Below the pieces are notes generated by a model. The model had not been told where the DNA came from. It did not search any database and saw nothing but the letters and a program-made list of their open reading frames with translations. The position numbers and the translations under genes were made by a program. Below are positions 26,793 through 44,982 of a stretch of 64,000 nt of DNA, in pieces. Where the stretch lies: the NCBI RefSeq assembly GCF_004310865.1, contig NZ_SIXI01000005.1:248001-312000 (forward strand). Direction: 5' to 3'. Each line of letters starts with the position of its first letter. Position 1 is the first letter of the stretch. This DNA comes from Aquabacterium lacunae (GTDB lineage: Bacteria; Pseudomonadota; Gammaproteobacteria; Burkholderiales; Burkholderiaceae_C).

Positions 26793-26822
26793 GCATTTCA
26801 TCGCAAATCTGTGCGAATCTGA
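26793..26822 (-). promoter_or_regulatory. Three-unit 10-bp direct repeat (site 1, CLCA-like operon)
   Basis: Plus-strand units GCATTTCATC, GCAAATCTGT, GCGAATCTGA, starting every 10 bases. The seventh base of each unit is C, as in all 12 units of the four sites in this window. Proposed binding site of the OmpR-type regulator encoded at 38534-39292. Confidence 0.65.
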
Positions 26823-26882
26823 TCAAGGGGGTGAACATGGCACAGTTCCCCCCTGATCACGTTGCCCACAAGGGGCAAGGCC

Positions 26883-29800
26883 TCACTTGCGTTCGACCGA
26901 CACGCCACCCACGTCCATGTGGATGGTGGTGCTGCTCGACTGGCCCTGCACCGTGCTGCGGTTCACGCTCTGGCCTTGCACCGAAGAGCCGCTGCCGGCG
27001 TCGATCTGCGTGTTCTGCAGCTCCACGGCGCCCTGGGCCTTGATCTGGCTGCTGCCGCCCGCCTTGATCTGTACACCCTGAACCGTCGACTGGTTCGAGC
27101 TGCCGATGCTGGCGTCGACGTTCAGGCCACCGCCACCGCCACCGCCACCGCCAGAATCGCCACCTGACTTGCCGCCGGCGTTGAAGTCGATCGAAGCGCC
27201 CACATTGCTGTTGCTCTCGGTGTTGCGCAAGGCCTCGGTCTTGACCTTGCCGCCCGTCGACTGGATGCCGACATTGCCGCCTGCGTCCACGCTGGTGCCT
27301 TGCAGGGTCACGTCTTTGGCCGCCTCGATCGAGGTGTTGCCGGTGGTGTTGATCTTCACGCCCTGCTGGGTGGTCTTGGCCGACTGGCCCTTGGCATAGT
27401 CGGCCGACAGGCCCACCGAGCCCGACTTCTCCTTCGTCTTGCCGTCCTTCGAGGCCGACAGGCTGGCGTCCACGTTGGCTTCCATGGTCGACGACTTGTC
27501 GGTGCTGGTGGCGGCCTTGAGGTTCACCGCGCCCTGATCGGCCTTGATGGTGGCGCTGGCGCCCGACAACTCGCTGCCTTCCAGGGTCACGTCGCCCGTG
27601 CGGGCCCGGATGACCAGGCCGCCTGCGCCCGCGTCGATGCTGGCGCCCTTGGCGGTCGAGCTGTCCTTGTTCTCGCCCTTCTCGCCGTGCTTGTAGGCCA
27701 GGTCCACCCCGCCCGTGCCCACCTTGGCTTCACCCGAGTTGCTGCGTTCGTCCTTGCTGCTGGTGCTGGTGTCGCGGGCCGCCTGGATGTCGACGCTGCC
27801 ACCGCTGATCTCCACGCCCTTGCCGGCCTTCATCTGCGTGCCCAGCAGCACGGTCTCTTCCTGCGAGGTCGACTTGATCTTGCCGCCGGCCTTGTAGGTG
27901 GTGACCTGCTGCGTGGTGTCCTTGCTGGATTCCTTGCTGGCCGATTCGTCCAGCTTGGCCTTCACGCCCACCGAGGTGCCCGCGCCAGCATCGCCACCGG
28001 TGACACCACCACTGGCGCCGGCGCTGGCCCCCGCCGACACGCCGATGCGACCGTCGATCGAGCTGCTGCTGCTTTCGCTGAACTTGGTGTTCTCGGCACG
28101 CGTTTCCACAATCTTTTTGGCCGACTGCTCGATGTTGCCTTCTGCGCTCAAGGCGCTGCCCTGGTCGGAGATCTTGTTCTCGGCCTTGCGGGTCAGGTTG
28201 CCACCCGAGGTGAAGGTGCTGCCCTTCATCGTGGTTTCGCCTTCGCGCTTCATCTCGGAACTCTTGGCCGCACGCAGGCCCGCGCTGGCTTCGGCCGAGG
28301 CGCTTGCCGAGCCGTTGACGCTGGCGGCGTTCTTGGCGTTGCCCGAGCCCTTGGCGTTGGCGTTGGCGGTGCCGTCGATGTACACCCCCGACAACTCGGT
28401 CGACGAGCTGCTGGTGGTGATCTTCGAGTCTTCAGCCGCCGTGTTGATGATGTCCTTGGCCTGGATGGTCATGTCGCCACCCGAGCTGACATCGGCCCCA
28501 TGGAAGGAGGCGGTCTCGTCTGCCTTGATCGACATGTTGCCACCCGACTTGATCGACGAGCGCAGGTTGGTGATCGATGTTTCGGTCTCGGTCGAGCTCT
28601 TGTTGCGCGAACCGATGGTGGTGGTGCCCGTGGCCTCGGCCTCAGCCTTGGCGCGGCCACCGGTGGGCACCTTGCCGCCACCCTTGGAGGCGCTGGCCTC
28701 GGCCTTGGCTTCGCCTTCGGTGTAGATGCCCGTACCTTCGGTCTTGCGCGTGGTGGTGGTGGTGTCCACTTCCTTGAAGGTGGTCACGTTCACCGACTTG
28801 GCCTTCACGGCCAGGTCACCGCCTGCGTCGATGTTCGAGCCTTCCACATTCAGCGCATTGGTGGCTTCGATGGCCATGCCACCGCCGGACTTCAGCGATG
28901 AGGCCGAACCCGTGATCTTGGTCTTGGACGTGGTCTGTGTGTCCAGTTCGGTCAGGTTCACACCGGCTGAGCCCTTGGCGTTGGCGCTGGCCGAAGCCTT
29001 GCTGCCGCCTGCTTCTGCGCCCGCCTTGGCTGAACCTTCGGGCTTGTCGATCTTGCCGATCGACATGGTCGTGGTGGTGGTGGTTGAGGTGCTGTAGTTC
29101 TGGCCGGCCTTCACGTTGACATCGGTGGCCTTGACACTGAGCTTGCCGCCCGTGTCCACGCTGGAGCCCTGCAGGGTCAGGTCCTTGGCGGCCTGGATGC
29201 TGGTGTTGCCACCCACGGTGATGCTGCTGCCTTGCGACTTGCCCTCCGAGGTCACGGTCTTGGTCGTGCTCTTGCTGTACAGCGAGCCGTCGGACATCGT
29301 GCTTTCGCTGACCTTGGCGCGGGTTTCGGTGTCTCTCGTGTCGACGCGGTCCACCACCTTCACGCTGCCGGTGGTCGACTGGATGCTGGCATTGCCCTTC
29401 ACGTTCACGTTCGAGCCACCCACCGTGATGTCGTCCTTGGCCTTCATGCCCAGGTTGCCGCCCACGTTGATGCCCGAGCCCACATTGCGCACGGTCTTCG
29501 TCGAGGTGCCGTCGGCATCGAACGAGGTGGTCTTGTTCTGGATCGTGTCGACGGTGATGGCCTTGCCGGCTTCCAGGCTGGCATTGCGGCCGGCGTTCAC
29601 TTGGCCACCCTTGACGGTGATGTTCTCGGCGGCCTTGATGGTCAGGTTGCCCTTGCTCGACCCCATGGTGGCGGTCTTGCCGATGCTGGTGTTCTGGCCC
29701 ACGGCGGCATTGCCCGTGGTGTTGGCCACGGTCTGGTTCACCACCGAGCCCTTGGTGGCTTCGATGCGGGCCGACTCGGTGCCGTCAATGGTGCCGCTGG

Positions 29801-32800
29801 TGTTGGTGACGCTGCCGGCCTTGATGTCCAGGTTCTTGGCCTGGATGGTGCCGCCCGTGTTGGTCAGCGCATCGCCCTGGATGGTGGCTTTTTCACTGGC
29901 CACGATGCTGGCGCCCTTGGTCAGGTTGGCCAGGGTGCTGGGGGCCAGGTACACGCGCGGTGCCAGCACCTTCTGGCCGTTCACCACCACCTCTTCCATC
30001 CAGACCATGTCCTTGTCGAGCTTGGCGATCTGGGCGGCCGTCAGGGGCTTGCCGTAGGTCAGGCCCAGGCTCTTGCCCTGGCTGATGGCGGCGTCCATCA
30101 TGGCCTGCATCTGCGTGGCCTCGTTGCGGGCGCTGCCGATCAGGGCCGAGCCGGTGGCATTGATCACCTGCTGGCGGATCATGTAGGCCTCGTAGCTGGC
30201 GTCACCCAGGCGCTTGAGCTGCATGTCGGGGTTGATGCCGAAACGTTCGGCCATGTACTGCGAGCCGACGAAGTCCGACTGCAGGGCGAATTGCGGGTTC
30301 GATTCGATCAGGTAGCCGGCCTTGGGGTTCTGGCTGACCACGTACAGGCCGTTGGGGTTGGTCGGCAGGTTGAAGTTCACGCCGCCGAAGGTGAGCTTGT
30401 TCACGGCCGAGGCCGCCTGCATGCTCTGGCCATTGCTCAGGGTTGCGCCAGGGCCCGACACAGTCGACGCGCCTTGCACGCTCTGGCTGCTGTCGGTGCT
30501 GCCCGATTGCGTCTTGATGCCCGAGGTGTTCAGCGAGGCCGAGGTGCTGACCTTGCTGGTGTCGGTCGGGAAAGGCGAGCTGACGTTGTTCAGCGTGCCG
30601 CTGGTGAAGCTGAAGTTGTTGGCCTTGATGCCCGCGTTGAACTGCTTGTGGGTGGCCAGGTTCTTGGGGTTGCCGACGGCGTCATTGGCCGCATTGATTT
30701 CGTCCTGACCGCTCCAGTCGTCGTCGCTGGTGCCCCAGACCTGGGTCCAGGCGCTGCCGGGGTTGTAATCCTCCGACGATTCCGAGCCGTTCGGCCGGTT
30801 GAAGCTGCCTGACACATTGGTCATGGCGTAGATCTTGTTTTCGTCGTCGAATTCACCGTTGTCGTTGACCAGCAGGATCTGACGCTCCGAGTCGCGCTTG
30901 AGCAGGCTCATGTCGTCGTTGGTGAAGGTGCCCGAGCCGCCGATGCTCACGTTCGGTGCCGTGATGGTGGCCACCTTGTTCAGGCCGCTGCTGCCGTAGC
31001 TGATGGTCACGGTCGAGTTGCTGCCCGTGCCCACGATCTGGGCCTTCACGGCCTGGTCCAGCGCCTGCTCGGTGATGCCGACCAGCTCTTCCTCTTCCTT
31101 CGAGGTGTAGGTGTCCAGCCAGACGTTCATGCCGCTCTTGAGGCTGCCTTCGGTCGACAAGGTGCTGCGGTTGGTCTTGCTCAAGGGGCTGGTGGTCTTC
31201 CAGGCCTTGGAGATCGACACGCCATTGAACTGCGTTTCGTTGGTGAACGAACCGCCCGCGCTCAGGGTGATGTTGCCGTTGGCCGTGATGGCACCGTGGT
31301 TGCGCAGGTTGCCGCTGGCGGCCAGGCTGACGTTGCCATCCGAACTGAGGTCGGCCCCGGCCTGGTTGACGATGGTCTGGGTGTTGTTCACGGTCACCGA
31401 GGTGGCGCCGTAGACGGTGCCGCTGTTGGTGAAGGTGCCGGCCGCGCTGAGTTGCACCGTGCCACTGCCAGCGATGCCGCCGTTGGCGCTGTTGGTCAGG
31501 CTGCCGCCGTTCGTCACCGACAGGCTCAGGCTTTCCCCGCCAAACAGGGCGCCTTCGTTGGTGAAGCTGGCCGGTGTGCTCAGGCTCAGGGCCTTGGCCG
31601 CCACGATGGCGGCCGTGTGGTTGCTGCCGCTGCCGTTGGTCAGGCTGCTGACGGTGCCGCTGATGTTGCCCGTCGAGCTGATGCGGCCCTGGTTGTCCAG
31701 TGCGGCATTGCTGTTGCCGAAGGTGGTGTTGGCCAGCACCATGCGGCCTGCGCTCTGGTTGCTGACCTGCGCGAAGGCGGACGTCCCGTTGGCCTGTCCC
31801 AGGGCTTGCAGCAGCCCCTGGTTGGTCAGGGTGGCGGTGCTGGTGATGCGGTCGCTGGCCGCCACCTTGCCGCTGTTCGCCCAGGCGCCGCCTTGCACGT
31901 GCACGTGCTGCGCCGTGACCACCGCATTGCTGTCGGTGGTGGTGCCGCTGGTGCTGCTCAGGCTGGCCTGTTGACCTGCCGTGGTCTTGCCCGACAGCGT
32001 CAGGGTGCTCTGGGTGCTGCCCAGGGCCACGTTGGCATCCGTCGACACGATGGCGCCGGTGCTGGTCTGGCTGAACGCGCCACTGCTGCTCAGGTCCACC
32101 GCCTGCTTGGCCTGCACCGTGCCTGACACGGTCGTGCCACCGGTGCCCACCAGGGCATCGATCCGGCCTTGCTGGCTGATCACGGTGCCCGAGATGTTCA
32201 GTTGCGCCAGGTTGCGCAGGGCGTCGCCCAAGGCAATGTCCTGCATCGCATTGACGGTGCCCGCCTGGGTGCCCTGCGTGCCGCGCAGGCGCACGCTGCC
32301 ATCCGACTCGATGCGACCACCCACCTGGTTGGCCCAGGCGGTGTTCAGGTCGTCCATGCGCACGAAGATCTCGCTGGCCAGTGCGGTGGCCGATTTGGCC
32401 TTGATCAGGCCCGCGTTGTCCAGACCACCACTCAGGGTGACACTCGTGCCCTGGATGGTGCCCGTGCTGGTGTTGCCAATGGCGCTGGTGCGGCTGGTGA
32501 TCTGAACCGCCTTTTGCGCCAGCATCTTGCCCTGGTTGCTCACGCCATTGGCCTGGGCGGTCAGGCTTTCGCCTTGCAAGGCGCCGGTGTTGGTCAGGCT
32601 CTGGGTGCTGGCATTGCCCACGGTCAGGGCCTTGGCCGCATCGACCAGACCGGCATTGCTCACGGTGGTGGCCGTCACGCCGATGGCCTGGCCCGTCACC
32701 TGGCCGGTGGCGGTGTTGTTCAGGGTGCCACTCACACTCAGCGTGGTGTTGCCGTCGCTGGCCACCTTGCCGCTGTTGCTCAGGCCGTTGGCCTGCACCG

Positions 32801-34529
32801 ACAGGGCGGCGTTGTTGCCGGTCGCCACCACGGTGCCGCTGTTGGTGTGCTGGCCCGATTGGGTCAGGCTCACGGTGCGGCCTTGCAGTGTGCCCGAGTT
32901 GTTCAGGCTGGTGGTGCTGGCGCTCAGGGTGTCGGCCATCACCTTGCCCTGGTTGGTCAGCTGGGTGCCGCTCAGGTTCAGTGCGCCTTCCGAGGCCACG
33001 GTGCCGGTGCTGCCGTTGTCCAGGTTGCCATTGATCTGCAAAGCCTTGGCCTGCAGGGTGCCCAGGTTGCCCACGGTCGAGGCGCTGACGGTCAGCAGGG
33101 CCTGGCCCTGCAGCGTGCTGCCTGCGGCGATGTCGGTGCGGCCGGTGCTGCTCACGGTGGCGGCGGCGGTCGACGACACCTGGCTGGTGCCTTGCAGGCC
33201 CAGCGAGCCGGTGCTCATGGCCAGGGCGCCCTTGGCGTACAGGTCGGCGTTGCTCAGGGTGGCCGCGCCACCCACGGTCACGGTCTGGTTGCCTTGTGCG
33301 CCCCACACGGCGTTGGCCACCGAGGCGGCACCGGTGGTGTTCAGCGTCACGGTCTGGCCGAAGCGCTGGGCCTTGCTGGCGGCGGTCATGCCCACGTCAT
33401 TGAGCGAGGCGGCACTGACGGCCAGCAGCTCGTCGGCCACCAGCTTGCCCTGGCGCAGCGTCACGTCCTGCTGGCTGCTCAGGTTGACCTGGCGTGCAGA
33501 GACATTGCCTGACAGGTCCATGCCCTGGCTGGCTTCGACCACCACCTGCTGGCCAGCGGCCGACAGGTTGTTGGTGCCACTGATGCGGCCCTCGGCCGAG
33601 ATGCGGATGTCGCCCGCCGAGGCCGACATGTCACCGGCCATGCGCACGCCCAGGCCGGTTTCGGTCGAGACGATGCGGATCTGTCCGGCGTACATGCCAC
33701 CCAGGGTGGCGGTGTCCAGGGCCAGCAAGGGGGCGCCTGCACCCGGCGTGAGCGCCGTGACGGTGTTGTCCAGGTTCCACTGGTTGGTGCCCACGACCAC
33801 GCGCAGCACACCCGGGGTGTTGATGGCCGCTTCGGCCTTGATGCCACGGGCCACCAGCTCCATCAGGGTCTGGTTGTTGCCATTCAGCCCGTTGCCGGTG
33901 ATCAGCAGGTCACCTTGCGAGACGGCAAAGCCCTTGAGCAGCTTGGCCGCATCGAAGGTGGGCACGCCGGTGGTCAGGGTCACGCGGTCGGTGTTGAGGA
34001 AGCCGCAGCCCGAGCAGGTGATGCCGTAGGGGTTGGCCACGATCACATCGGCCCGGCTGCCCAGCACTTCGGTGAAGCCGGCCAGGGTGGTGCGGTTGGG
34101 GGCCACCACCTCGTTCAGGATCACGCGGGCTTCCTGCACCAGGTTGGTGTTGGCCATGACCTGACCGGCCAGCTGCGAGCTGCGCGCCATCTGGCTGGTG
34201 TTGCCATTGTTCAGCACCACGCCCCGGGTGTCGACGTTGTACTGGTTGTACTGGTTGTGCGACAGGCCATTGCTGTTGGCCTTGTTGATGTTCACCACCG
34301 GCACGCCGTTGGGCGCGTTGTACACATTGGTGAGCGTGCCCGCCACCGGTTGAATTTGCGCCTGTGCGCCTGGCGCCGTGACCAGCAGGGCCCCCAGCAA
34401 CGCCGCAGTCATCGCCTTGCCCGAAGCCCCCGGCCCAGCTCGACGGGCGAATTCGGGCACCGCCACATATGTGCCGGTGATTTCGTTGAAGACGACGCGG
34501 TAGATGCGGTTGATGGAGGCGTGGTTCAT
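26883..34529 (-). CDS. Filamentous-haemagglutinin-type TpsA exoprotein
   Basis: 2548 residues. The N-terminus has the extended signal peptide region (ESPR; NRIYRVVFNEITGTYVAVPE), a hydrophobic core and cleavage after AQA. Next is the TPS secretion domain with the characteristic NPYGITCSGCGFLNT block near residue 170. A long beta-helix of Asn/Gly/Ser/Thr repeats (LTNxGxLQ type) follows, and haemagglutinin repeats rich in STTTTT and AGGNM/SIxA units fill the C-terminal third. It ends IHMDVGGVSVERK with no VENN motif, toxin domain or immunity gene, so it looks like an adhesin rather than a CdiA toxin. The cognate TpsB gene is 91 bases upstream. Confidence 0.93.
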   Translation of the reverse strand: MNHASINRIYRVVFNEITGTYVAVPEFARRAGPGASGKAMTAALLGALLVTAPGAQAQIQPVAGTLTNVYNAPNGVPVVNINKANSNGLSHNQYNQYNVDTRGVVLNNGNTSQMARSSQLAGQVMANTNLVQEARVILNEVVAPNRTTLAGFTEVLGSRADVIVANPYGITCSGCGFLNTDRVTLTTGVPTFDAAKLLKGFAVSQGDLLITGNGLNGNNQTLMELVARGIKAEAAINTPGVLRVVVGTNQWNLDNTVTALTPGAGAPLLALDTATLGGMYAGQIRIVSTETGLGVRMAGDMSASAGDIRISAEGRISGTNNLSAAGQQVVVEASQGMDLSGNVSARQVNLSSQQDVTLRQGKLVADELLAVSAASLNDVGMTAASKAQRFGQTVTLNTTGAASVANAVWGAQGNQTVTVGGAATLSNADLYAKGALAMSTGSLGLQGTSQVSSTAAATVSSTGRTDIAAGSTLQGQALLTVSASTVGNLGTLQAKALQINGNLDNGSTGTVASEGALNLSGTQLTNQGKVMADTLSASTTSLNNSGTLQGRTVSLTQSGQHTNSGTVVATGNNAALSVQANGLSNSGKVASDGNTTLSVSGTLNNTATGQVTGQAIGVTATTVSNAGLVDAAKALTVGNASTQSLTNTGALQGESLTAQANGVSNQGKMLAQKAVQITSRTSAIGNTSTGTIQGTSVTLSGGLDNAGLIKAKSATALASEIFVRMDDLNTAWANQVGGRIESDGSVRLRGTQGTQAGTVNAMQDIALGDALRNLAQLNISGTVISQQGRIDALVGTGGTTVSGTVQAKQAVDLSSSGAFSQTSTGAIVSTDANVALGSTQSTLTLSGKTTAGQQASLSSTSGTTTDSNAVVTAQHVHVQGGAWANSGKVAASDRITSTATLTNQGLLQALGQANGTSAFAQVSNQSAGRMVLANTTFGNSNAALDNQGRISSTGNISGTVSSLTNGSGSNHTAAIVAAKALSLSTPASFTNEGALFGGESLSLSVTNGGSLTNSANGGIAGSGTVQLSAAGTFTNSGTVYGATSVTVNNTQTIVNQAGADLSSDGNVSLAASGNLRNHGAITANGNITLSAGGSFTNETQFNGVSISKAWKTTSPLSKTNRSTLSTEGSLKSGMNVWLDTYTSKEEEELVGITEQALDQAVKAQIVGTGSNSTVTISYGSSGLNKVATITAPNVSIGGSGTFTNDDMSLLKRDSERQILLVNDNGEFDDENKIYAMTNVSGSFNRPNGSESSEDYNPGSAWTQVWGTSDDDWSGQDEINAANDAVGNPKNLATHKQFNAGIKANNFSFTSGTLNNVSSPFPTDTSKVSTSASLNTSGIKTQSGSTDSSQSVQGASTVSGPGATLSNGQSMQAASAVNKLTFGGVNFNLPTNPNGLYVVSQNPKAGYLIESNPQFALQSDFVGSQYMAERFGINPDMQLKRLGDASYEAYMIRQQVINATGSALIGSARNEATQMQAMMDAAISQGKSLGLTYGKPLTAAQIAKLDKDMVWMEEVVVNGQKVLAPRVYLAPSTLANLTKGASIVASEKATIQGDALTNTGGTIQAKNLDIKAGSVTNTSGTIDGTESARIEATKGSVVNQTVANTTGNAAVGQNTSIGKTATMGSSKGNLTIKAAENITVKGGQVNAGRNASLEAGKAITVDTIQNKTTSFDADGTSTKTVRNVGSGINVGGNLGMKAKDDITVGGSNVNVKGNASIQSTTGSVKVVDRVDTRDTETRAKVSESTMSDGSLYSKSTTKTVTSEGKSQGSSITVGGNTSIQAAKDLTLQGSSVDTGGKLSVKATDVNVKAGQNYSTSTTTTTTMSIGKIDKPEGSAKAGAEAGGSKASASANAKGSAGVNLTELDTQTTSKTKITGSASSLKSGGGMAIEATNALNVEGSNIDAGGDLAVKAKSVNVTTFKEVDTTTTTRKTEGTGIYTEGEAKAEASASKGGGKVPTGGRAKAEAEATGTTTIGSRNKSSTETETSITNLRSSIKSGGNMSIKADETASFHGADVSSGGDMTIQAKDIINTAAEDSKITTSSSSTELSGVYIDGTANANAKGSGNAKNAASVNGSASASAEASAGLRAAKSSEMKREGETTMKGSTFTSGGNLTRKAENKISDQGSALSAEGNIEQSAKKIVETRAENTKFSESSSSSIDGRIGVSAGASAGASGGVTGGDAGAGTSVGVKAKLDESASKESSKDTTQQVTTYKAGGKIKSTSQEETVLLGTQMKAGKGVEISGGSVDIQAARDTSTSSKDERSNSGEAKVGTGGVDLAYKHGEKGENKDSSTAKGASIDAGAGGLVIRARTGDVTLEGSELSGASATIKADQGAVNLKAATSTDKSSTMEANVDASLSASKDGKTKEKSGSVGLSADYAKGQSAKTTQQGVKINTTGNTSIEAAKDVTLQGTSVDAGGNVGIQSTGGKVKTEALRNTESNSNVGASIDFNAGGKSGGDSGGGGGGGGGLNVDASIGSSNQSTVQGVQIKAGGSSQIKAQGAVELQNTQIDAGSGSSVQGQSVNRSTVQGQSSSTTIHMDVGGVSVERK

Positions 34530-34620
34530 GGCGTACTGCTCAGGTGTTCGGTGGCGGATGCCCCGGAGGGCAAGGCGATGGGGCGATGGCTGCCGTGGCT
34601 CAGAAGTGGCTGGAAGCTGC

Positions 34621-36324
34621 TCAGAAGGCCCAGTTCAGTCGGAACCAGGTCTGGCCCGATTCCAGCTGGTTGAACCAGCGGCCGGGCTGGTTCAGCGCCT
34701 TGGTGTGCATCAGTTCGATCTGGAAGGGGCCGGCGTACAGGTTCAGGCTGGCGAACCAGCCGGACAGCACACCTTCTGGTGTGTTGTCCACGCGGCTGAA
34801 CACGCGGCCGATGTCGTGGCCCAGGGCCAGCTTCAGCTGATGCACCTGGCCGTTGGGCAGCAGCAGCGGCTTGCGCAGGCTCAGCTCGTTGCGCAGGTAG
34901 TGGCCGTGGTCACCGGCCAGCGAATTGCGGACGAAGCCGCGCACCGAGTACAGGCCGCCAATCGACATCTGCTCCGAGCCGTACAGCACGTCGGCGCCGT
35001 ACTGGCCGTTCCATTGGGTCGACCACATGAGGTTCTGGCCGGCCAGCTCGAAGGGGCGCGAGAGGTTCAAGGTGGCGCGGTAGCGCTGAAACTGCGCGCG
35101 CGGCGCCCAGTCGGGCAGGTTGTCGCGGTCTTTCTGGGCGCCCATGAGCGAGGTACCCAGGTCGGCACCCACGCCGCCGTCGATCATCCAGCCGCCCGCC
35201 AGGGTGCTGGCATTGAGGTCCAGGCTGGCCACGCTCAGGGTGCGGCTGCTCACGGCCAGGTACTGGCGCTCCAGGAAGTTGCGGCTTTCCTTGAGCGTGA
35301 AGCCGCCGCTGGCATTGACGCGGCTGGTCTGGTTGCGCCACAGCAGGCGGTCCAGCTTGACCTGGTGGCTCCACGAGGTGCCATCCGACAGCAGGGTCAG
35401 GCCCGAGGGGGCCGTGAAGCTGCTGGCGTATTCCGAGGTGGTGAAGGTGTAGCTGACCGTGTGGTAGCCCAGGGGAACGCTCCAGTTCAGGCCCGCGCTG
35501 CGGCTGCCTTTGCGGTCCACATCGAGGTCGGTGCTCTGCTTGTAGTTCAGGCTGAGCAGGTCTTGCAGGCTGAGCAGGTTGTCCACCGCAATGGTGCCGC
35601 CCCACTGGTGCTCGCCGGTCGAGGTGGCGCCCTGGTTGTCGAGCGACAGCGAACCGCGCACGCGGCCCTCAGGCTTGTTGGTGATGCGCACCACGCTCAG
35701 GCCTGCGGCGCTGCCGGGCAGGATGTCCATGGTGGCGCGGTTGGTGGGCAGGCGGTTCATCTGCTCGATGCCCTGCTCGATGTCCCTCAGGTTCAGCACG
35801 TCACCGGCCTGGATGGGGAAGGCGTGGGCCATGCGGGTCGCGCTGTCGAACACCACGCGCTCGATGCGGCCTTCGACCACCTTGAAACGCAATTCGCCAG
35901 TGGCCGTGTCTTGGTCGGGCAGGTACACCCGGCTGGTGATCAGGCCCCGCACCATCAGGTCCTGTGTCATCAGGGTCAGGGCTTCCTGCAGGGCGCTGCG
36001 TTGCAGGCAGGGGTTCACGTAGCGGCTGGTGACCAGCTCGCGCACATCGCGGGACAACCACTCGCTGCCCTCGATCACCACCTTGTCGGCCTTGACGCAG
36101 GGGCCCGGCTCCACGGCGGGCAGCGGGGGCAGGCCCAGCTCAGGGGCGGTCACTCGGGGGGGCGGCGGGGTGGCCGCGTCCAGGTCGCGACGCAGTTGCT
36201 GTTCCTGCTGCTGCTGGATCTGCTGGGCGCGGCGCTGCGCAGCGTCCAGGTCAGAAGGTGCGGTCTGCGCGTGGGCGAAGGTGGCGCTGATCAGGCCGAT
36301 CGAAGCGGCGATTGTTCTTTTCAT
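34621..36324 (-). CDS. TpsB outer-membrane transporter (ShlB/FhaC family)
   Basis: 567 residues. A signal peptide (cleavage after AHA), a Gln-rich helix (AQQIQQQQEQQLRRD), two POTRA-like domains (about 70-225) and a 16-stranded Omp85-type barrel ending in Phe (RLNWAF). The barrel has the L6-loop motif SVRGF characteristic of TpsB proteins. It would recognise the TPS domain of the adhesin encoded immediately downstream and export it. Start 36324 begins the signal peptide; the frame extends to 36408 without homologous sequence. A three-unit direct repeat lies 115 bases upstream. Confidence 0.93.
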   Translation of the reverse strand: MKRTIAASIGLISATFAHAQTAPSDLDAAQRRAQQIQQQQEQQLRRDLDAATPPPPRVTAPELGLPPLPAVEPGPCVKADKVVIEGSEWLSRDVRELVTSRYVNPCLQRSALQEALTLMTQDLMVRGLITSRVYLPDQDTATGELRFKVVEGRIERVVFDSATRMAHAFPIQAGDVLNLRDIEQGIEQMNRLPTNRATMDILPGSAAGLSVVRITNKPEGRVRGSLSLDNQGATSTGEHQWGGTIAVDNLLSLQDLLSLNYKQSTDLDVDRKGSRSAGLNWSVPLGYHTVSYTFTTSEYASSFTAPSGLTLLSDGTSWSHQVKLDRLLWRNQTSRVNASGGFTLKESRNFLERQYLAVSSRTLSVASLDLNASTLAGGWMIDGGVGADLGTSLMGAQKDRDNLPDWAPRAQFQRYRATLNLSRPFELAGQNLMWSTQWNGQYGADVLYGSEQMSIGGLYSVRGFVRNSLAGDHGHYLRNELSLRKPLLLPNGQVHQLKLALGHDIGRVFSRVDNTPEGVLSGWFASLNLYAGPFQIELMHTKALNQPGRWFNQLESGQTWFRLNWAF

Positions 36325-36406: not shown

Positions 36407-36412
36407 ACTGTA
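36407..36412 (-). promoter_or_regulatory. Putative -10 element of tpsB
   Basis: Minus-strand TACAGT, followed by GCCTGCAG. It lies 26 bases from the three-unit repeat; the response-regulator gene has the same TACAGTGC sequence at its own promoter. Confidence 0.45.
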
Positions 36413-36438
36413 GGAGGCTTCGCCGGGTGGCTGTCGCC

Positions 36439-36468
36439 TCAATTCTTTGACATTCTTTGAAAATCTGC
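36439..36468 (-). promoter_or_regulatory. Three-unit 10-bp direct repeat (site 2, tpsB)
   Basis: Plus-strand units TCAATTCTTT, GACATTCTTT, GAAAATCTGC, starting every 10 bases and followed by GC. Same orientation relative to the gene as the other three sites. Confidence 0.65.
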
Positions 36469-36517
36469 GCAGGCACCTGCCCTGGGGGGCGCTTTGTGGC
36501 AATTGCCCGTGAAAAAG

Positions 36518-38530
36518 TCACGGTATCGAGATGGTCACGCACAGCCCCTGAGGCCGAAGGGCGCTGGGTGTGACCTGGCCACCATGGGCCTCGACGATCT
36601 GGCGGCAGAAGAAGTACCCCAGCCCTGTGCCCTGCGAGCCCGTGCTGCGCTGGCCCTGGGACAGTTCGTCACCCAGGTGGTACTGGGCGCCCAGGCGGGC
36701 CATCTCGTCCTCGCTGAGCCCGGGGCCCTGGTCGATCACGGCGATGCGAACACCACCGGACTCATGGGCCTGGGCCACCAGGCGCACCACGCCGTCGTCA
36801 GGCGAATACCGCAGCGCGTTGTCCAGCAGGTTGTTCAGGGCCAGGCGCATCAGTTTCGGGTCGAGGTGGGCGCGCAGATCCCCCTGTGGCATCTCCAGTT
36901 GCACCCGCGCCCCCATGTCGGGGCCCATGGCCTGGATCAGGCTGTTCAGCCATTCGCGCAGGGTCACCTCGGTGGGGTTGGGCGTGATGGGGGATTGGTC
37001 GTCGTGCCCCACGGTCAGGAAGCCGTCGACCAGTGTGCCCAGGCGACGCACCTGCTGACGCACGTTGGCGATGCGCGAATGCAGCTGCTCGCCCGTGGGC
37101 GACTGCAAGGCCTGCAGCAGGTTGGCGCTGCGGTCGATGCTGGCCAGGGGGTTGCGGAACTCGTGCGTGAGCATGGCCACAAAGCGCTGGTGCGCAGCGG
37201 CACGTTCCTGTGCCAGGGTCTTGTCGCTGCGCTCGCGGCTGATGCGCATGCCCATGGCCACGGCCATCACCAGGGTGTGGAACAGGGTGGCGGCCGGGTA
37301 GATCTGGCTGGTCAGTTCGTTCGAGGGCAGCAGCCCCAGCAGTGAAGCGGCCAGCACGATGCCGCCAACCTGGTAGCTCAGGAAGGCGATCAGGTAGACC
37401 ATGCGCAAGCGATCGTGCATGCGGCGCCAGGCCACCCAGGCGCAATACAGGATCAGGGGCGACGACACGACACCCATCAGGAAGCTGATGTTGACCACCT
37501 TGTTGTAGTGCGGGGTCAGGGCCAGGGGCAGGGCCATGGCAAACAGCAGGGCCAGCACGCGGTACATGCGGGCCAGCCGCGGTTGGTGGTTGTCCATGTC
37601 CAGACAGTTCACCCACAGCACCCCTGCGGCGTACCAGGGGCCGGTGGTGCCAAACCCTGCGAACAGGTCGTTCAACCACCAGGGCGGTGCCTGCACCAAC
37701 TGGATCAGCAAGCCTGTTTGCCCCATGTACAGGAGCACCAGCGTGGCCAGGAACAGGCTGTAAAAACCCAGCATGCCATCGCGCAGCCAGATGCTGGTCA
37801 GCGCGTAGGTCAGGCAGCCCAGCGCCAGCACACCGATGAACATGCCCAGCATCGCGCTGGTGTTCACTTCGGTGTTGAAGTAATGGGCGGGGGAGTCCAG
37901 GCTGAATGTGAACCGCATGGTGCCGTCCGTGCGCGAGCGCACCCAGATCAGCACCTCTTCGTCGGGCAGCAGGTTCATGCCCACGGTGTGGTGTCGGGCA
38001 TGGATCTGTCGGCCGTCGCCCAGGAAGTGGTCGCCCAGTTGCAGGTGCTCGATGCGGCCATCGCCACGCTCCAGCCACACTTGCACGTCGTCCAGGTAGG
38101 GCATGCCCACGACGGCCAGCCATCGCCCCTGCTCCACATCGGTCCGCTTGACGGGGACCACATACCAGAAGGCCGTGGACCGGGCCCCTGCGGCATGCGG
38201 CACCGCTCGGGGCTTGAACTGTCCTGCGAGCAATTGCGACCGCGCCTGGGCAAAGGAGGCCTGGGCGCTCTTGTCTTCCCAGTGCGCCAGGGTGGGCGTG
38301 AAGGGCTTTTCGATCGGGCGCCGCACCAGGTTCACCTGCGGCACCAACCTCAGCACGGCCGCATCGACTTCAGCGCGCTGGCCCGGCACCTCTCGGTGAC
38401 TGCGGTCTACAGGCTGCTGCGCAGGCGGGCGAACCAGTGTCGCGAAGATGAGCAGCCAGCTCAGGGCGATGAGGCCCAGGGCCCAGCCCCAGGGTGCACG
38501 TTGCCAGGGCATGGGGCGAGAGGTGGGCAT
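36518..38530 (-). CDS. 7TM-DISM sensor histidine kinase
   Basis: 670 residues. One N-terminal membrane segment (18-33), a periplasmic region of about 190 residues resembling 7TMR-DISMED2 (WLERGDGRIEHLQLGDHF, RSRTDGTMRFTFSL), then seven membrane helices (about 230-420), a HisKA domain with MLTHEFRNPLASI (His456), and a HATPase domain with LNNLLDNALRYS, DQGPGLS and GTGLGYFF. DISM sensor regions are thought to bind carbohydrates or related ligands. The gene starts 3 bases after the response regulator stop, so the pair is one transcript. The likely partner is that regulator. Confidence 0.93.
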   Translation of the reverse strand: MPTSRPMPWQRAPWGWALGLIALSWLLIFATLVRPPAQQPVDRSHREVPGQRAEVDAAVLRLVPQVNLVRRPIEKPFTPTLAHWEDKSAQASFAQARSQLLAGQFKPRAVPHAAGARSTAFWYVVPVKRTDVEQGRWLAVVGMPYLDDVQVWLERGDGRIEHLQLGDHFLGDGRQIHARHHTVGMNLLPDEEVLIWVRSRTDGTMRFTFSLDSPAHYFNTEVNTSAMLGMFIGVLALGCLTYALTSIWLRDGMLGFYSLFLATLVLLYMGQTGLLIQLVQAPPWWLNDLFAGFGTTGPWYAAGVLWVNCLDMDNHQPRLARMYRVLALLFAMALPLALTPHYNKVVNISFLMGVVSSPLILYCAWVAWRRMHDRLRMVYLIAFLSYQVGGIVLAASLLGLLPSNELTSQIYPAATLFHTLVMAVAMGMRISRERSDKTLAQERAAAHQRFVAMLTHEFRNPLASIDRSANLLQALQSPTGEQLHSRIANVRQQVRRLGTLVDGFLTVGHDDQSPITPNPTEVTLREWLNSLIQAMGPDMGARVQLEMPQGDLRAHLDPKLMRLALNNLLDNALRYSPDDGVVRLVAQAHESGGVRIAVIDQGPGLSEDEMARLGAQYHLGDELSQGQRSTGSQGTGLGYFFCRQIVEAHGGQVTPSALRPQGLCVTISIP

Positions 38531-38533
38531 GGT

Positions 38534-39292
38534 TCAGGCCGGTTGAATGATCTGGCAGGTGCCTGTGAACACATAGCCCTGGCCATAGAAGGAACGCAAG
38601 GGCAGGGCCTGGCCCATGTCCTGCTCGACCTTTTTGCGCAAGCGGGCCGCGCAGCCGTCGAGGTTGCGCAGGTTGTTCAGGGTTTCGGGCTTGCCCATGT
38701 GGTTCAGCAGCTCGGTTCGGCTCACGGTCAGGCCGGGGGTGCGCATCAGGCGCTGCAGGAAGCTCACTTCCATCACCGTGAGTTCGACGCCAGTCTGGCC
38801 AGGGCCGTTCAGGGTGCAGTTGGCCACATGCAGCAACCAATCCTGTGCCTTGTCCAATGCAGGGATCGACTGGGCGCTGGGAGCCATCGAGGCCTGCGAT
38901 GCAGCCGCCTGGGTGTGCAGAGCGAGGCGCCGCAACACGCTGCGGCAGGTGGCCTCGATCACCTCCAGCGAGGCGCCCTTGACCAGGTAGGCGTCTGCGC
39001 CCCCATCCAGCCCGGCCACCCGCATGCCTTCGTCACCGAAGGCCGTGAGCATCACGATGCCGGTGGCAGGAAACCTCTGACGCAGCACGGGCGCCACGTC
39101 CAGCCCCGACTGATCGGGCAATCCGATGTCCAGCAGGACCAGGTCCGGCGCATGCATGGCCAGCAGGTTCCACAGGTGCTGGGCCGACGCTGCCCCCATG
39201 GCCATGTAGCCCTTGAGGGTGAGGTAGTCCACCAGATCGATGCGCAGATCCGGGTCGTCTTCGACAACGATGATGCGTGTGGTGGAAGGCAT
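38534..39292 (-). CDS. OmpR-family response regulator
   Basis: About 252 residues. The receiver domain (5-120) has the acidic pair EDD at 11-13, phosphoacceptor Asp55 in LVLLDIGLPD and Lys105. A linker of about 40 residues leads to a winged-helix Trans_reg_C domain (VELTVMEVSFLQRLM, LLNHMGKPE, recognition helix near NLDGCAARLRKKV, and the C-terminal hairpin SFYGQGYVF). OmpR/PhoB-type regulators bind tandem direct repeats of about 10-11 bases. A three-unit 10-bp repeat precedes this gene and three neighbouring surface genes. Start 39292 (MPSTTRIIVVEDD) replaces the longer frame to 39370. Confidence 0.93.
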   Translation of the reverse strand: MPSTTRIIVVEDDPDLRIDLVDYLTLKGYMAMGAASAQHLWNLLAMHAPDLVLLDIGLPDQSGLDVAPVLRQRFPATGIVMLTAFGDEGMRVAGLDGGADAYLVKGASLEVIEATCRSVLRRLALHTQAAASQASMAPSAQSIPALDKAQDWLLHVANCTLNGPGQTGVELTVMEVSFLQRLMRTPGLTVSRTELLNHMGKPETLNNLRNLDGCAARLRKKVEQDMGQALPLRSFYGQGYVFTGTCQIIQPA

Positions 39293-39303
39293 GTTCGGGC
39301 TGC

Positions 39304-39309
39304 ACTGTA
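39304..39309 (-). promoter_or_regulatory. Putative -10 element of the response regulator gene
   Basis: Minus-strand TACAGT followed by GCAG, nearly the tpsB sequence. It is 37 bases from the three-unit repeat, 11 bases (one helical turn) more than at the tpsB and CLCA-like promoters. Confidence 0.45.
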
Positions 39310-39346
39310 AATCGGCCTCAGGCCTGCGCCCTGCATCCCACGCTGC

Positions 39347-39376
39347 GAGATTCTTTGGAAATCTGTGCAAATCTGC
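39347..39376 (-). promoter_or_regulatory. Three-unit 10-bp direct repeat (site 3, response regulator)
   Basis: Plus-strand units GAGATTCTTT, GGAAATCTGT, GCAAATCTGC, starting every 10 bases and followed by GC. Its position upstream of the regulator gene suggests autoregulation. Confidence 0.65.
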
Positions 39377-39397
39377 GCGATGAACGCGCGGTGCGGG

Positions 39398-40480: not shown

Positions 40481-40510
40481 GGTGATCGACAGGGCTCGTG
40501 GCCCCGGCAA

Positions 40511-40527
40511 GTCAGGAACAGCCTGAC
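40511..40527. promoter_or_regulatory. Palindrome in the bioB leader
   Basis: GTCAGG-AACAG-CCTGAC, a perfect 6-5-6 inverted repeat, directly next to a possible bioB -10 element (minus-strand TACACT, 40528-40533). It does not resemble the BirA operator; candidate operator of unknown regulator. Confidence 0.35.
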
Positions 40528-40597
40528 AGTGTAGTGGGTGGGGGGGTGAAGGCCTTGCGCAGCGTGAAAAGCCCTGCGCTGCGCTATCCTCGACCGC

Positions 40598-41083
40598 ATG
40601 CGTTTTGAACACCTCATCGAGATCAATTCACCGGCCGCCGCCCTGCAGGGCGTGATGGACACGTTCACCCGCGAGCAGTTGTGGCGCGGGCTCATGCTCA
40701 AGGTGATGTCGCCTGAACGTTTCGACAACGGCCCGCAGCGGGCCGTGTGCATCAGCCCGCAGGCCGATCAGGTGCAGCGCACGCTGCATTTCGGCGAGCA
40801 CGTGCTGCATGACGTGGTGGAGCTGACCCCGATGCAGCGCGTGGTGTTCACACCCCAGGCGCATGGCGAGCTGGCACCGATCCGCCTGACCGTGTCGATC
40901 GAAGAGCCGCAGCCCCGCCAGATGGTGCTGCGCTTCGTGTACGAAGCCCTGGGTGAACAGACGGCCGAAGAGGCCTCGTTCAATGGCTATCGCCACAGCG
41001 CCTGGCTGCACGCCGACCGCGACACGGTCAGCCAGCTGCGCGAGTGGCTGGGCAATGGCGAGCTGTCGCGCGCGGTGAACTGA
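40598..41083 (+). CDS. SRPBCC-family protein (AtaL/DUF1857-like)
   Basis: 161 residues resembling the AtaL/DUF1857 branch of the SRPBCC superfamily: [10 protein letters not shown] at the start, the [19 protein letters not shown] block and a long C-terminal helix ([11 protein letters not shown]). Proteins of this fold enclose small hydrophobic ligands, but no activity is known for this group. The gene is divergent from bioB and convergent with an AMP-ligase gene, and no shared pathway is evident. Confidence 0.7.
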
Positions 41084-41104
41084 GGCTTTCCAGCCTCGGG
41101 CACT

Positions 41105-42559
41105 TCACAGACCGACGCCTTGCGCCTGCAGGCGCGCCAGCAGGTCGATGGCTGTGGCCGCGCGGTCGGGCTTGCCTGACGCGGTGCGGGGGATCTGTGC
41201 CACCTCAATGATCCAGCGAGGGTGCAGCGCGGGGGGCAAGGCCTGTTCAATGTGCTGGCGCACCGCGGTCATGTCAAAGCCGGGTGCAGGCACCACGGCG
41301 CACATCATCACGGGCAGGCCTCGCGCATCGGGGGCTTGGGTGGTCAGCCCCTCCTGCACGCCCGGGGCACTGGTCAGCAGGTCGTCCACGGTCTGTGCAT
41401 TGACCTTCGTGCCGCCCAGGTTGATGACATGGTCGGCTCGTCCTGTGATGTGCAGCAGGCCTGTGGTGTCGAGCACACCCAGATCGCCGGGGTAGAACCA
41501 GCCGTCGCGGAAGCCTTCAGCCTGCGGCTGTGTGTAGCCGTGGGCCATGTAAGGGGTGCGCAGGCGCACTTGACCTTCCTGCCCGGGGGGAAGAGGCTGG
41601 TCCTGCGCGTCAACCACCTCGACCACGACGCCAGGCACCACGCGGCCGGCCGCTTTCGGCGCAGACAGCAGCGTGGCGGTGTCGGCCACGGCCACCGTGC
41701 CCACCTCGGACGACGCGTAGCGGACCAGCACTTCCGCACACAGGCGTTGCTGCAGCAGATGCAGCAAGGGTTCGCGCACCGGGCCGCCACCTGTCACCAC
41801 GGCTTCGAGGCGCGCTGCACGGGCGTTCAGCGATTCGCCCATGCGGGCCAGGTCGGCCAGTTGCGCGGGCGAGCCCGACACATAGGCCAAGGGCTGCTGC
41901 GCCAGCACCTGCCACATGGCCTTCAGGTCGGGGCACAGGTGCGTGGGCTGCCCGGTGTACAGCGGGCGCCATGCGGCGTGCATGCCGGGCAAGGTGCTTT
42001 GGTCGAACAACACAATGATCCCGCCACTGACCGGCAGCTTGGCATGGCGCTGCAGGGCGCGTTCGTGGAGGGTTTGCACGCTGAGCAAGATGGACTTGGG
42101 TGTGCCTGTGCTCCCTGACGATTGTTGCAGCCGGCAGATGGCGTGAGGCCCCTCAAAGGCCTGGGCCGGCAGTTGCCCCGGTTGCGTGGCCAGGGCCGTC
42201 AACCAGGCGGCATCGAGCGCCACCACCTTGCCCAGGTAAGCCGGTGGTTGCACCGGGTGATCGGCCATCAGCCACTGACTGCTCAGGCTGTCGGGCCAGG
42301 GCTGGCCGATGGGCAGCACGCACACGGCGGCCGCGCGGTGCATGCAGGCCAGTGACAAGCAGGCCAGCATGAAGGGGTTCTGAACGCTCAGGCTCACCGT
42401 GTGCCCGGGCTGCACGCCCTGATCCTGCAATTGCTCGGCCATTTGCGTGACCAGGCGCTGCAACTGCGCGAAGGTGGTGGGCCGACCCATGGTGAAGAAC
42501 GCCATGGCCTCGGGTGTGGCGGAGGCCTGCGCGTGCAGTCGGTCGATGATCGGGTTCAT
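41105..42559 (-). CDS. AMP-binding ligase (acyl/aryl-CoA synthetase family)
   Basis: 484 residues of the adenylate-forming ANL superfamily. Core motifs: SSGSTGTPKS (147-156, P-loop-like), YASSEVG (aromatic/acid recognition), WFYPGDLG (ribose-binding Asp), the hinge segment ITGRADHVINLGGTKVNA and the catalytic lysine in TASGKPDR. The acyl substrate cannot be deduced; the protein is shorter than typical acyl-CoA synthetases and lacks an obvious carrier domain nearby. It lies just before the autotransporter on the minus strand, separated by a terminator, so they are independent. Confidence 0.85.
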   Translation of the reverse strand: MNPIIDRLHAQASATPEAMAFFTMGRPTTFAQLQRLVTQMAEQLQDQGVQPGHTVSLSVQNPFMLACLSLACMHRAAAVCVLPIGQPWPDSLSSQWLMADHPVQPPAYLGKVVALDAAWLTALATQPGQLPAQAFEGPHAICRLQQSSGSTGTPKSILLSVQTLHERALQRHAKLPVSGGIIVLFDQSTLPGMHAAWRPLYTGQPTHLCPDLKAMWQVLAQQPLAYVSGSPAQLADLARMGESLNARAARLEAVVTGGGPVREPLLHLLQQRLCAEVLVRYASSEVGTVAVADTATLLSAPKAAGRVVPGVVVEVVDAQDQPLPPGQEGQVRLRTPYMAHGYTQPQAEGFRDGWFYPGDLGVLDTTGLLHITGRADHVINLGGTKVNAQTVDDLLTSAPGVQEGLTTQAPDARGLPVMMCAVVPAPGFDMTAVRQHIEQALPPALHPRWIIEVAQIPRTASGKPDRAATAIDLLARLQAQGVGL

Positions 42560-42603
42560 GGGGTGCGAACAGACGTGGGATGGAGATGGCCGGGGCGGCC
42601 ATG

Positions 42604-42634
42604 AAAAAAGGGCCGCAGCACAGGCTGCAGCCCC
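42604..42634 (-). terminator. Rho-independent terminator of the autotransporter gene
   Basis: Minus-strand stem GGGCTGCAGC / GCTGCGGCCC (one G-U pair), four-base loop, then six T residues. It lies 27 bases after the autotransporter stop. Confidence 0.85.
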
Positions 42635-42660
42635 TTCATTGTGCGTGCCTCGTGGCAGGG

Positions 42661-44907
42661 TCAGAAGGCCCAGCGCAGCTTGAACGACACGGTCTGGTTG
42701 GTGAACTTCTCGCGCAGCTCCAGGTCGTACTGGGTCAGCAGCTCGGGGCCACCCAGGGTGCGCCAGCTCAGGCCCAGGCCCAGCGTCGCCAGCCAGGGCG
42801 CTGGCAGGGCCCCGTTGGTGGTGAAGCTGGCGGCGGGCGCGCCGGCGTACGCGGCGGTCAGCACGCCCTTGCCGTGCGAGTGGTCATAGCCGATGCCAGC
42901 GCGTGCCACCAGGTTGGAGCGATCGTTCAGGGCGCGTTGCAGCGAGGCACCCAGGGTGCTGACATAACTTTCGGTGCGCTTGGCGGCCACGCTCAAGTTC
43001 AGCAGGCCCGCGCCGTTTTCGGTGTAGGCGTCGTCTTCCACCAGGGTGTAGTCGATGCGTGCGAAGGGCGACACCTTCAGGCCATCGGCCAGGCTGTAGC
43101 TGCGCTGCACGCCCAGGCCCACGTGGGCCGTGCTGCTTTCATACGAGGCCGTGGCCGTGGCACCAGCGAAGGCCATGAAGCGGCGGGTGGTGTTGCGGTT
43201 CGACCCCAGGTCGACCTGGAAGTCCAGCGAGGTGCGTTCGTCCAGCTGGTGGGTGCCGTAGCCGATCAGCTGGTGGATGGTGGTTTGTCCGCTTTGCGGG
43301 CTGGTGGCGCCGCGGCCGCCCATGTCGTTCTGGGCGTAGGCATAAGCCAGGCCCAGTCGTGTGGCGGGCGAGGCGTCACCCTCGACACCACCGCTCAGGC
43401 CATACAGGTTGGCCTTGTAGCCGGGCGTGCCGCCCACATCGCCTTGCACGACCTTGCCGCCGAAGGGCTTGAACCACAGCGAGCCGTTGCCGAAGTAGCT
43501 GTTGCCGGCCGAGGCGCCGCGGTTGGCATCGAAGCGCCCCTGGATGACCTGGTTGATGCGACCCATGGCACCCTGCGTGAGCGTGGCCGATCCGCCTGCC
43601 AGGAAGGGCAGGGTCTGTGTCACCGCATTGGACAGCATGCCCGAGTCGGCTTGCACATTGCCGAACAGGTCGAGCAGGGCGCTGTTGGCGTCGATCACGG
43701 CGGCCGCGCCGGAGGCCACTGGCGCGCGAGGCGTCACGGCCGAGGTGGCCACGGCATTGAGGCTGAGGATCAGGTCCCACACCTGGTTGTTGTCGGCGTC
43801 AGACAGGGCCCAGCGGAAGCCGTTGTAATTGCCAGTCAGGGCGTTGCCCAGGTCGGCGGCGCTCAGGCCGCTCAGCACGTCGGTGTAGGTGGTGCTGGCC
43901 ACCGTGGAACCCTGGGCAATGCCAAAGCGCATGGTGCCGAACAGCGGCGTGGCGGCGTCGACAGGGGCCTGAACGAGAAGGGTGGCGCGCCGTGATTCCA
44001 GCGCAGGCTGCATCACCACCAGCTTGCCGTATTGCGAGGGGCTGCGGATGATGACGTTGTAGTTCTCGGGCAAGATGCCGCGGAAGGTCAGGGGCGTGGC
44101 GCCACCCTGCAGGTTGTTGAGGGTGACGATGCGGCCCGCTGCCACGCCGGGATAGGATCGGTCGAAGTTGTTGTAGATACCAAAACCCGTGGAGCCCCCC
44201 AGGAGCATGCCCTCGTTGTTCAGCGTGTTGATCACGCCATAGTTCGAGATAGCCGGATTTGTTGATTGCGCCTGGATGGTGCCAGTGTTCGTCAACGTGT
44301 TGACGACACCAGAATTGGTGATGCTCGCGCTGTACTCCGACCCGCTGGTGATGCTGCCGGTGTTGGTCAGCGTGTTGATGCGCCCTTCCTGGCCGTTGAA
44401 AATCGCACCGTAGCCACTGCTTGTGGCATCCCACACACCGGTGTTGGTCAGCAGGTCGATCGAGCCGATCGTATTGAACAGCGACGCGTTGCCATTGAAG
44501 GTGCCGTTGTTGATGAAGCTGAAGTACGAGGCGTTTGCGTCGAAGTCAGACAGCGCAGGCGAGTAGCTGGCAGTCGATCCGACCATCGTGCCGTTGTTCA
44601 CCCAGGTCACCGCTGTCGCGGGGGAATTGCCCAGCCCCACGTACGCTCTAAGCAGGCTGATCGTCGCGCCGGCGTTCACGGTGACATTGCCTGCCGTCCA
44701 GTCCAGGGGAGCCGGGTTCGACCCTTCGCAGTCGCTGCTGATCGTGTTGCCACCCGCCTGGGTGAGCGTGCAGAGGGTGGGGCCCGAGTTGGAGGGGCCT
44801 GAGGCCGCAGCAGGGGCCGCTTGAGCCTGAGCAGAGGCACCCAGAACCAGCAGCAGGGCGGCCAGGGGCTGGGGCTTGAATCGGGCGGGAAGTTTGCGGG
44901 ACAACAT
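42661..44907 (-). CDS. Classical (type Va) autotransporter
   Basis: 748 residues. Signal peptide (cleavage after AQA), then a passenger with beta-helix repeats of the kind INTLTNTGSI / VNTLTNTGTI / INTLNNEGML, the conserved segment YNVIIRSPSQYGKLVV that precedes the junction in many autotransporters, and a C-terminal beta-domain of about 280 residues starting near GSLWFKPFGG and ending in LRWAF. No protease or lipase motif is seen in the passenger, so adhesion is the likely but unproven role. The start at 44907 (MLSRKLPAR) begins the signal peptide; the frame reaches 44976, but that part overlaps the three-unit promoter repeat. Confidence 0.9.
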   Translation of the reverse strand: MLSRKLPARFKPQPLAALLLVLGASAQAQAAPAAASGPSNSGPTLCTLTQAGGNTISSDCEGSNPAPLDWTAGNVTVNAGATISLLRAYVGLGNSPATAVTWVNNGTMVGSTASYSPALSDFDANASYFSFINNGTFNGNASLFNTIGSIDLLTNTGVWDATSSGYGAIFNGQEGRINTLTNTGSITSGSEYSASITNSGVVNTLTNTGTIQAQSTNPAISNYGVINTLNNEGMLLGGSTGFGIYNNFDRSYPGVAAGRIVTLNNLQGGATPLTFRGILPENYNVIIRSPSQYGKLVVMQPALESRRATLLVQAPVDAATPLFGTMRFGIAQGSTVASTTYTDVLSGLSAADLGNALTGNYNGFRWALSDADNNQVWDLILSLNAVATSAVTPRAPVASGAAAVIDANSALLDLFGNVQADSGMLSNAVTQTLPFLAGGSATLTQGAMGRINQVIQGRFDANRGASAGNSYFGNGSLWFKPFGGKVVQGDVGGTPGYKANLYGLSGGVEGDASPATRLGLAYAYAQNDMGGRGATSPQSGQTTIHQLIGYGTHQLDERTSLDFQVDLGSNRNTTRRFMAFAGATATASYESSTAHVGLGVQRSYSLADGLKVSPFARIDYTLVEDDAYTENGAGLLNLSVAAKRTESYVSTLGASLQRALNDRSNLVARAGIGYDHSHGKGVLTAAYAGAPAASFTTNGALPAPWLATLGLGLSWRTLGGPELLTQYDLELREKFTNQTVSFKLRWAF

Positions 44908-44952
44908 CGAACAGGGCCTCATGCAGTGATACAACCCATCGATTGTGCCGAA

Positions 44953-44982
44953 AGCAAACTTTGCAATTCGTAGCAATTCTTC
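44953..44982 (-). promoter_or_regulatory. Three-unit 10-bp direct repeat (site 4, autotransporter)
   Basis: Plus-strand units AGCAAACTTT, GCAATTCGTA, GCAATTCTTC, starting every 10 bases and followed by GCGA. The first unit is the weakest of the twelve. A -10 element is less clear here (TATCAC, 44926-44931, is a candidate at 21 bases), so spacing differs from the other three sites. Confidence 0.55.

Follow-up and report, generated by a model that had tools for sequence, protein, structure and literature searches.

Three-unit, 10-bp-phased repeats as candidate operators of an OmpR-type response regulator in a surface-protein gene cluster of Aquabacterium lacunae

OmpR-family response regulators recognise direct repeats with a spacing of roughly one helical turn (PMC9275681, PMC3798270), and several described systems resemble parts of the locus analysed here, as far as the available text of the cited papers goes. 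ArcA from E. coli, like the regulator considered here a member of the OmpR/PhoB family, has sites most of which comprise three to five direct-repeat elements, spaced by roughly one turn of the helix; however, its elements lie 11 bp apart from centre to centre and serve a global regulon (PMC3798270), whereas here the step is 10 bp, each site has three units and the set does not extend beyond one cluster. CenR from Rhodobacter sphaeroides is also an OmpR-family regulator with a tandem direct-repeat operator, present at its own and at envelope genes and conserved in relatives, but it uses two half-sites (TGA-N8-TGA), is essential and has genome-wide targets (PMC9275681). Exported surface proteins that are sorted by their C terminus come under two-component control in the cases of PrsK-PrsR and DVUA0057, which act on PEP-CTERM genes (PMC9850573, PMC3333781); the system of PMC9850573 is described there as Fis-type and its pepA is RpoN-dependent, whereas an OmpR-type regulator and sigma-70-like -10 elements are found here. 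BmfSR from Rubrivivax gelatinosus is similar in combining a 7TMR-type kinase with a response regulator that promotes extracellular matrix formation, but BmfR carries a LuxR-type DNA-binding domain and the accessible text describes no operator (PMC3684757). The conserved two-gene pair of MrtJ and JDVT-CTERM protein (PMC11980579) is matched by one operon of the present locus, in which a JDVT-CTERM gene is followed by a CPBP-family protease gene, although regulation of the pair is not described in the part of that paper available to us and the protease found here scores below the MrtJ cut-off. Among the matches listed, in the open-access literature and in a few subscription papers, as far as their text was accessible, no description of the regulator treated below, of its operator or of such a local surface regulon was found.

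Tandem operators of an OmpR-type regulator are ordinary in kind; the interest of this locus lies in a confined set that cuts across export routes and in a phasing that is kept while the units change. The arrangement suggests that two-partner secretion, autotransport and C-terminal sorting, which are export routes unrelated to one another, stand under one local switch, it provides an uncharacterised two-component system with a concrete candidate operator and a list of targets, and relatives with constant phasing and changing units offer a natural series for the study of regulator-operator co-evolution.

The window, a stretch of 64,000 nucleotides that was analysed as a whole, encodes on its minus strand an OmpR-type response regulator of 252 amino acids (38534-39292) with the recognition-helix signature RNLD, which is the proposed binder. 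Its Response_reg (77.1 bits) and winged-helix Trans_reg_C (42.1 bits) domains both score above cut-off, and residues E11, D12, D55, T83 and K105 are invariant across 13 aligned relatives. We take these residues to be the acidic pair, the phosphorylated Asp, the Thr and the Lys of a receiver domain, and the regulator is presumably phosphorylated. When compared with named OmpR-family equivalogs (OmpR, PhoB, TorR, BaeR, ArcA and others), it reached no cut-off among the best 25 of 88 NCBIfam models, the top score being 116.1 bits against a cut-off of 330. The proposed partner is a histidine kinase encoded at 36518-38530 (minus strand), in which 7TMR-DISMED2, 7TMR-DISM_7TM, HisKA and HATPase_c domains were all recognised above cut-off. 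The same genome has genes for eight more regulators of the OmpR type.

The initial annotation had described four 30-base arrays of three tandem 10-bp units, all in one orientation upstream of minus-strand genes, and the exact letters were found in place. In gene direction, site 1 (26793-26822) reads TCAGATTCGC ACAGATTTGC GATGAAATGC, site 2 (36439-36468) upstream of tpsB reads GCAGATTTTC AAAGAATGTC AAAGAATTGA, site 3 (39347-39376) upstream of the regulator gene reads GCAGATTTGC ACAGATTTCC AAAGAATCTC and site 4 (44953-44982) upstream of an autotransporter gene reads GAAGAATTGC TACGAATTGC AAAGTTTGCT, all on the minus strand. The reported unit composition also proved correct: on the plus strand C occupies position 7 in 12/12 units, T position 6 in 11/12 and A position 4 in 11/12, and 10/12 begin with G. 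In gene direction the unit form of all four arrays is NMAGAWTTGC. When three arrays from a congeneric genome (G029) were included, the resulting 21 units from seven sites had G4 and T7 in 20/21 cases each, A5 in 18/21, A3 and T8 in 17/21 each and G9 and C10 in 15/21 each. In leave-one-out weight-matrix scans, sites 1, 2, 3 and 4 scored 28.6, 36.9, 39.3 and 25.5, while the best non-site positions in the window reached 7.8, 6.6, 10.5 and 9.7 with the same matrices and the top scores among 100 dinucleotide shuffles were 20.5, 17.5, 18.7 and 20.8, so that 0/100 shuffles attained the score of the left-out site in each case. A 19-base pattern derived from sites 1-3, which are hence its own matches, had three matches with up to 3 mismatches in the 3.9-Mb genome, namely these sites, and its reversed control had 0. 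A fourth unit adjoining the three was also considered; the next downstream position gave single-unit p values of 0.015-0.56 at 8 sites, a hint that is not claimed as a unit.

Site 1 lies 65 bp from the first codon of a frame (24176-26728, minus strand) for an 850-amino-acid, HELGH metalloprotease-like protein. It contains a choice-of-anchor X domain, and its C-terminal JDVT-CTERM sorting tail scores 37.6 bits against a cut-off of 27. The protein had been labelled CLCA-like; its match to the CLCA model hCaCC is weak (21.7 bits against a cut-off of 900.85), and it is designated here by its JDVT-CTERM tail. The gene is followed by one for a CPBP/Rce1-like membrane protease (23061-24176, minus strand), whose best model is MrtJ with 47.3 bits; as this is below the cut-off of 75, the protease is named MrtJ-like only. 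The two genes (23061-26728, minus strand), not named as a pair in the earlier description, are probably a dedicated sorting pair. Behind site 2, tpsB encodes a ShlB/FhaC-type transporter (34621-36324, minus strand); the longest frame extends to 36408 and overlaps the -10 element, and the start is therefore probably the ATG at 36324. Downstream follows tpsA (26883-34529, minus strand), for an exoprotein of 2548 amino acids with ESPR, TPS domain and haemagglutinin repeats, which had no array of its own in the window matrix scan. A strong hairpin (TGATCAGGGGG...CCCCCTTGATCA; 26820-26859, minus strand) follows the stop codon of tpsA on the side of site 1 and ends within the first bases of the site 1 array; a 76-base stretch containing it has a folding energy of -31.8 kcal/mol (z -2.9), and it could be the end of tpsA transcription, though no T run follows. 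Site 4 precedes the gene for an autotransporter with a beta-domain (42661-44907, minus strand), whose longest frame extends to 44976 and contains in-frame ATGs at 44922 and 44907.

The distances from arrays to -10 elements had been given as 26 bases at two promoters and 37 at a third, and these values hold for sites 1, 2 and 3: TAGAGT (26761-26766) is located 26 bases past site 1, TACAGT (36407-36412) 26 bases past site 2, and TACAGT (39304-39309) 37 bases past site 3, all on the minus strand. Site 4 does not fit this spacing, as no -10 element occurs at 26 or 37 bases and the best match is TATCAC at 21. The array at the autotransporter gene is real, yet its promoter falls outside the 26/37 spacing; the gene may respond to the regulator. 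The -10 element behind site 3 is only 11 bases from the regulator's ATG, and the block TTTACAGTGCAG-CCGA-CATG at the start of the regulator gene (39292-39309, minus strand) is kept in G029; for these two reasons the regulator mRNA may have a leader of just a few bases. An array ending 26 bases from the -10 element would span about -68 to -39, and at 37 bases it would stand one turn higher.

We favour, with a probability of roughly 0.8, the reading that the arrays are operators of the response regulator at 38534-39292, which together with its 7TMR-DISM kinase would activate its own gene and the local set of surface genes. Upon a stimulus at the cell surface, the phosphorylated regulator would occupy three consecutive major grooves on a single side of the DNA, its copies arranged head to tail, immediately upstream of weak -10 promoters. 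The promoters to which it would recruit RNA polymerase are those of its own gene, of tpsB-tpsA, of the JDVT-CTERM/MrtJ-like pair and probably of the autotransporter gene. In NicD, a 7TMR-DISMED2 domain is associated with the binding of carbohydrates, according to the available text of PMC8544897; since the kinase carries this sensor domain, a glycan is our guess for the signal. That the effect would be activation is deduced from position: the arrays at sites 1-3 lie on the upstream side of the core promoter, at distances that differ by one turn of the helix, which would suit an activator. The regulator might instead bind the arrays and repress the set, or act both ways, with which position taken by itself is compatible; however, array ends 26 or 37 bases upstream of the -10 elements at sites 1-3 would fit an activator, and we regard repression or dual action as rather improbable.

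A sequence profile was built from seven arrays, four from the window genome (G000) and three from G029, and run on 42 congeneric genomes. Of 15 matches at E<=1, the seven at E<0.05 were the seven training sites, with E values of 8.6e-4, 8.6e-4, 7.1e-5 and 0.0117 for sites 1 to 4, site 4 being the weakest of the four, and the remaining eight (E 0.37-0.77) were distributed one apiece over eight genomes including G029. As the profile was trained on the sites that it recovered, the result demonstrates specificity and not independent discovery; runs on more than 40 genomes also involved stricter filters, with which some weak matches are lost. Across the whole window genome the motif was not equally common elsewhere, the profile matches being the four sites alone, and the same four alone were obtained with laxer filters in a run on six genomes. 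A search of 120 relatives, including 41 congeners, detected a close relative of the regulator in G029 alone (67% identity, E 2e-91), the next-best relative belonging to another family (E 5.5e-34). Among the 42 genomes of the genus, those with arrays at E<0.05 and those with a close regulator are therefore the same two, G000 and G029. The weak match in G029 (L044:18633, profile E 0.39) is located immediately past a tpsB-like frame, with its orientation pointing into that frame, and was not counted.

At the regulator promoter of G029, GCAGATTTGC AAAGAATTGA are retained, TACAGT follows 38 bases on and the TTTACAGTGCAG block is found near the ATG. The gene divergent from the regulator encodes a TPS exoprotein (ESPR, TPS and YDG domains) and has its own array, with only CACACT 26 bases past it. 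The third array of G029, found with a pattern written after the first two were known, precedes a PEP-CTERM gene on the far side of the kinase gene, and here TACAGT occurs at exactly 26 bases. A matrix made from the window alone ranked these three arrays first in a 20-kb stretch, above 100/100 shuffles. When 15 window proteins were compared by tblastn with 60 kb around the G029 regulator, the regulator and the kinase matched at 63-65%, TpsB at 22% and an AMP-binding protein at 26%, while TpsA, the 850-amino-acid protein and the autotransporter had no match at E<=1e-5 in these 60 kb. On this comparison of sequences, the predicted targets in G029 are different surface proteins and not orthologues of those in the window. 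The initial annotation had proposed that the regulator in the middle of the set controls all of it, and this proposal gains support from arrays that are confined to genomes with the regulator, occur at its own promoter in both and recur at non-orthologous surface genes; binding of the regulator to the arrays is inferred from strong comparative evidence.

The association of 10-bp repeats with the regulator was also analysed without a motif, by searching 300 bp upstream of each OmpR-type regulator gene for a stretch of 18 bases that recurs in steps of 10 bp and comparing with 200 shuffles. This test with coordinates from a table took the place of a matrix-based upstream scan, which placed no regulator frame in 9/22 loci, and it covered 50 loci, 38 chosen by the analyst and 12 added later (L029, L032, L034, L035 and L001-L008 from the window genome itself). 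The nine loci encoding a regulator with the RNLD helix come from several genera and two families, and seven of them gave p<=0.02, with L096 at 0.035 and L100 at 0.87; p<=0.02 was reached at 0/41 OmpR-type loci without RNLD, which include the eight from the window genome, three being at 0.025-0.04. In L095 the best stretch is a TG run, and its CAGAATT array scores equally (13 of 18). For the 38 loci chosen first, Fisher's test gave 3e-5 without and 3e-6 with L095, values that overstate certainty since related loci are not independent. These results bear on the view that the arrays are operators of some other regulator and that the regulator at 38534-39292 is merely one further target, a view that can draw on eight other proteins with an OmpR-type DNA-binding domain in the genome, the family that the survey covered. 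However, arrays and regulator share the same two of the 42 genus genomes, and the upstream 10-bp repeat tracks the RNLD helix and does not accompany other OmpR-type loci, including the eight of the same genome, and we judge control by another regulator to be decidedly unlikely. That the repeats are phased A/T runs which bend DNA, and not protein operators, can be practically dismissed: A/T-rich cores do recur every 10 bp within a window of 67% G+C, but non-A/T positions are conserved (G4, and to a lesser degree G9 and C10), and bending leaves the confinement to the cluster and to regulator-bearing genomes unexplained.

With the arrays read as operators of the RNLD regulator, the wider group of such loci can be considered. 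An adjacent kinase with a 7TMR-DISM_7TM domain was found at each of the eight RNLD loci covered, which are all of the nine other than L104. Unit sequence varies across RNLD loci and the 10-bp phasing stays. The RNLD regulator of L100 (G302) had no 10-bp array upstream (p 0.87) or downstream (p 0.58), which counts against the favoured reading. In the same locus an ESPR-like surface-protein frame (L100:2556-3725) is present downstream of the regulator and its 7TMR-DISM kinase. Tentatively, and at somewhat less than even odds, the RNLD subfamily of OmpR-type regulators and their 7TMR-DISM kinases may form a class of self-contained surface-display switches, of which each copy would mainly drive adjoining genes for adhesins, exoproteins or sorted proteins, with unit sequences drifting between lineages while the 10-bp phasing is kept; by such drift, copies of the switch could stay insulated from each other.

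With the own genome counted throughout, the kinase was found at E<=1e-60 in 4/399 genomes of the family, one of them G053, and the regulator in 12/399 genomes of the family (E<=1e-33), 2/399 of the order (E<=1e-36) and 1/369 of the class; when named genomes were scanned with the regulator, two loci came up, both with weak relatives. In G297, the array ACAGGAATTG ACAGCATTGA ACAGAATTCA, with TAAATT 26 bases on, faces, at a distance of about 270 bp, the opening of the frame for a DUF4347/PATR surface protein. This array, detected by pattern and matrix and not by the seven-site profile, is the top match of the window matrix in its 10.4 kb, above 100/100 shuffles. The repeat GTAGGTTTTG ACAGCATTTG ACAGAAAAGA in G380 faces a divergent gene and is the top match in 20 kb, at a score within the shuffle range. 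The seven-site profile, run with laxer filters on six genomes, gave no array at the regulators of G297, G380 and G765. In G427 and G149, 10-bp repeats of a different unit (the AGGTTTGGTT type, recognised by eye) are located beside genes for a DUF4347 protein and a large coiled-coil protein. In the matrix-based upstream scan, 22, 19 and 35 of 200 shuffles scored as high as G427, G149 and G765, respectively.

The arrays of G765, a genome from another family, are not singled out by the window matrix. Six TCAGA-N5-TCAGA pairs were counted in them, all with the same strand orientation, where shuffles averaged 0.017. A pattern made for this genome had 14 genome-wide matches (reversed control 2). Five are exact and all beside its regulator, and the nine with two mismatches comprise one ahead of a further sorted-protein gene in the cluster, one that overlaps an exact match and seven elsewhere. 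The exact arrays stand before or among genes for exosortase-sorted proteins, and one is the array nearest to the regulator; three of the neighbouring proteins have VPLPA-CTERM tails above cut-off, and two more paralogues were recognised from translations alone. Within L058:11136-14452 of this genome, three tandem paralogous sorted-protein genes have nearly identical arrays in front of them, which looks like joint duplication of array and gene.
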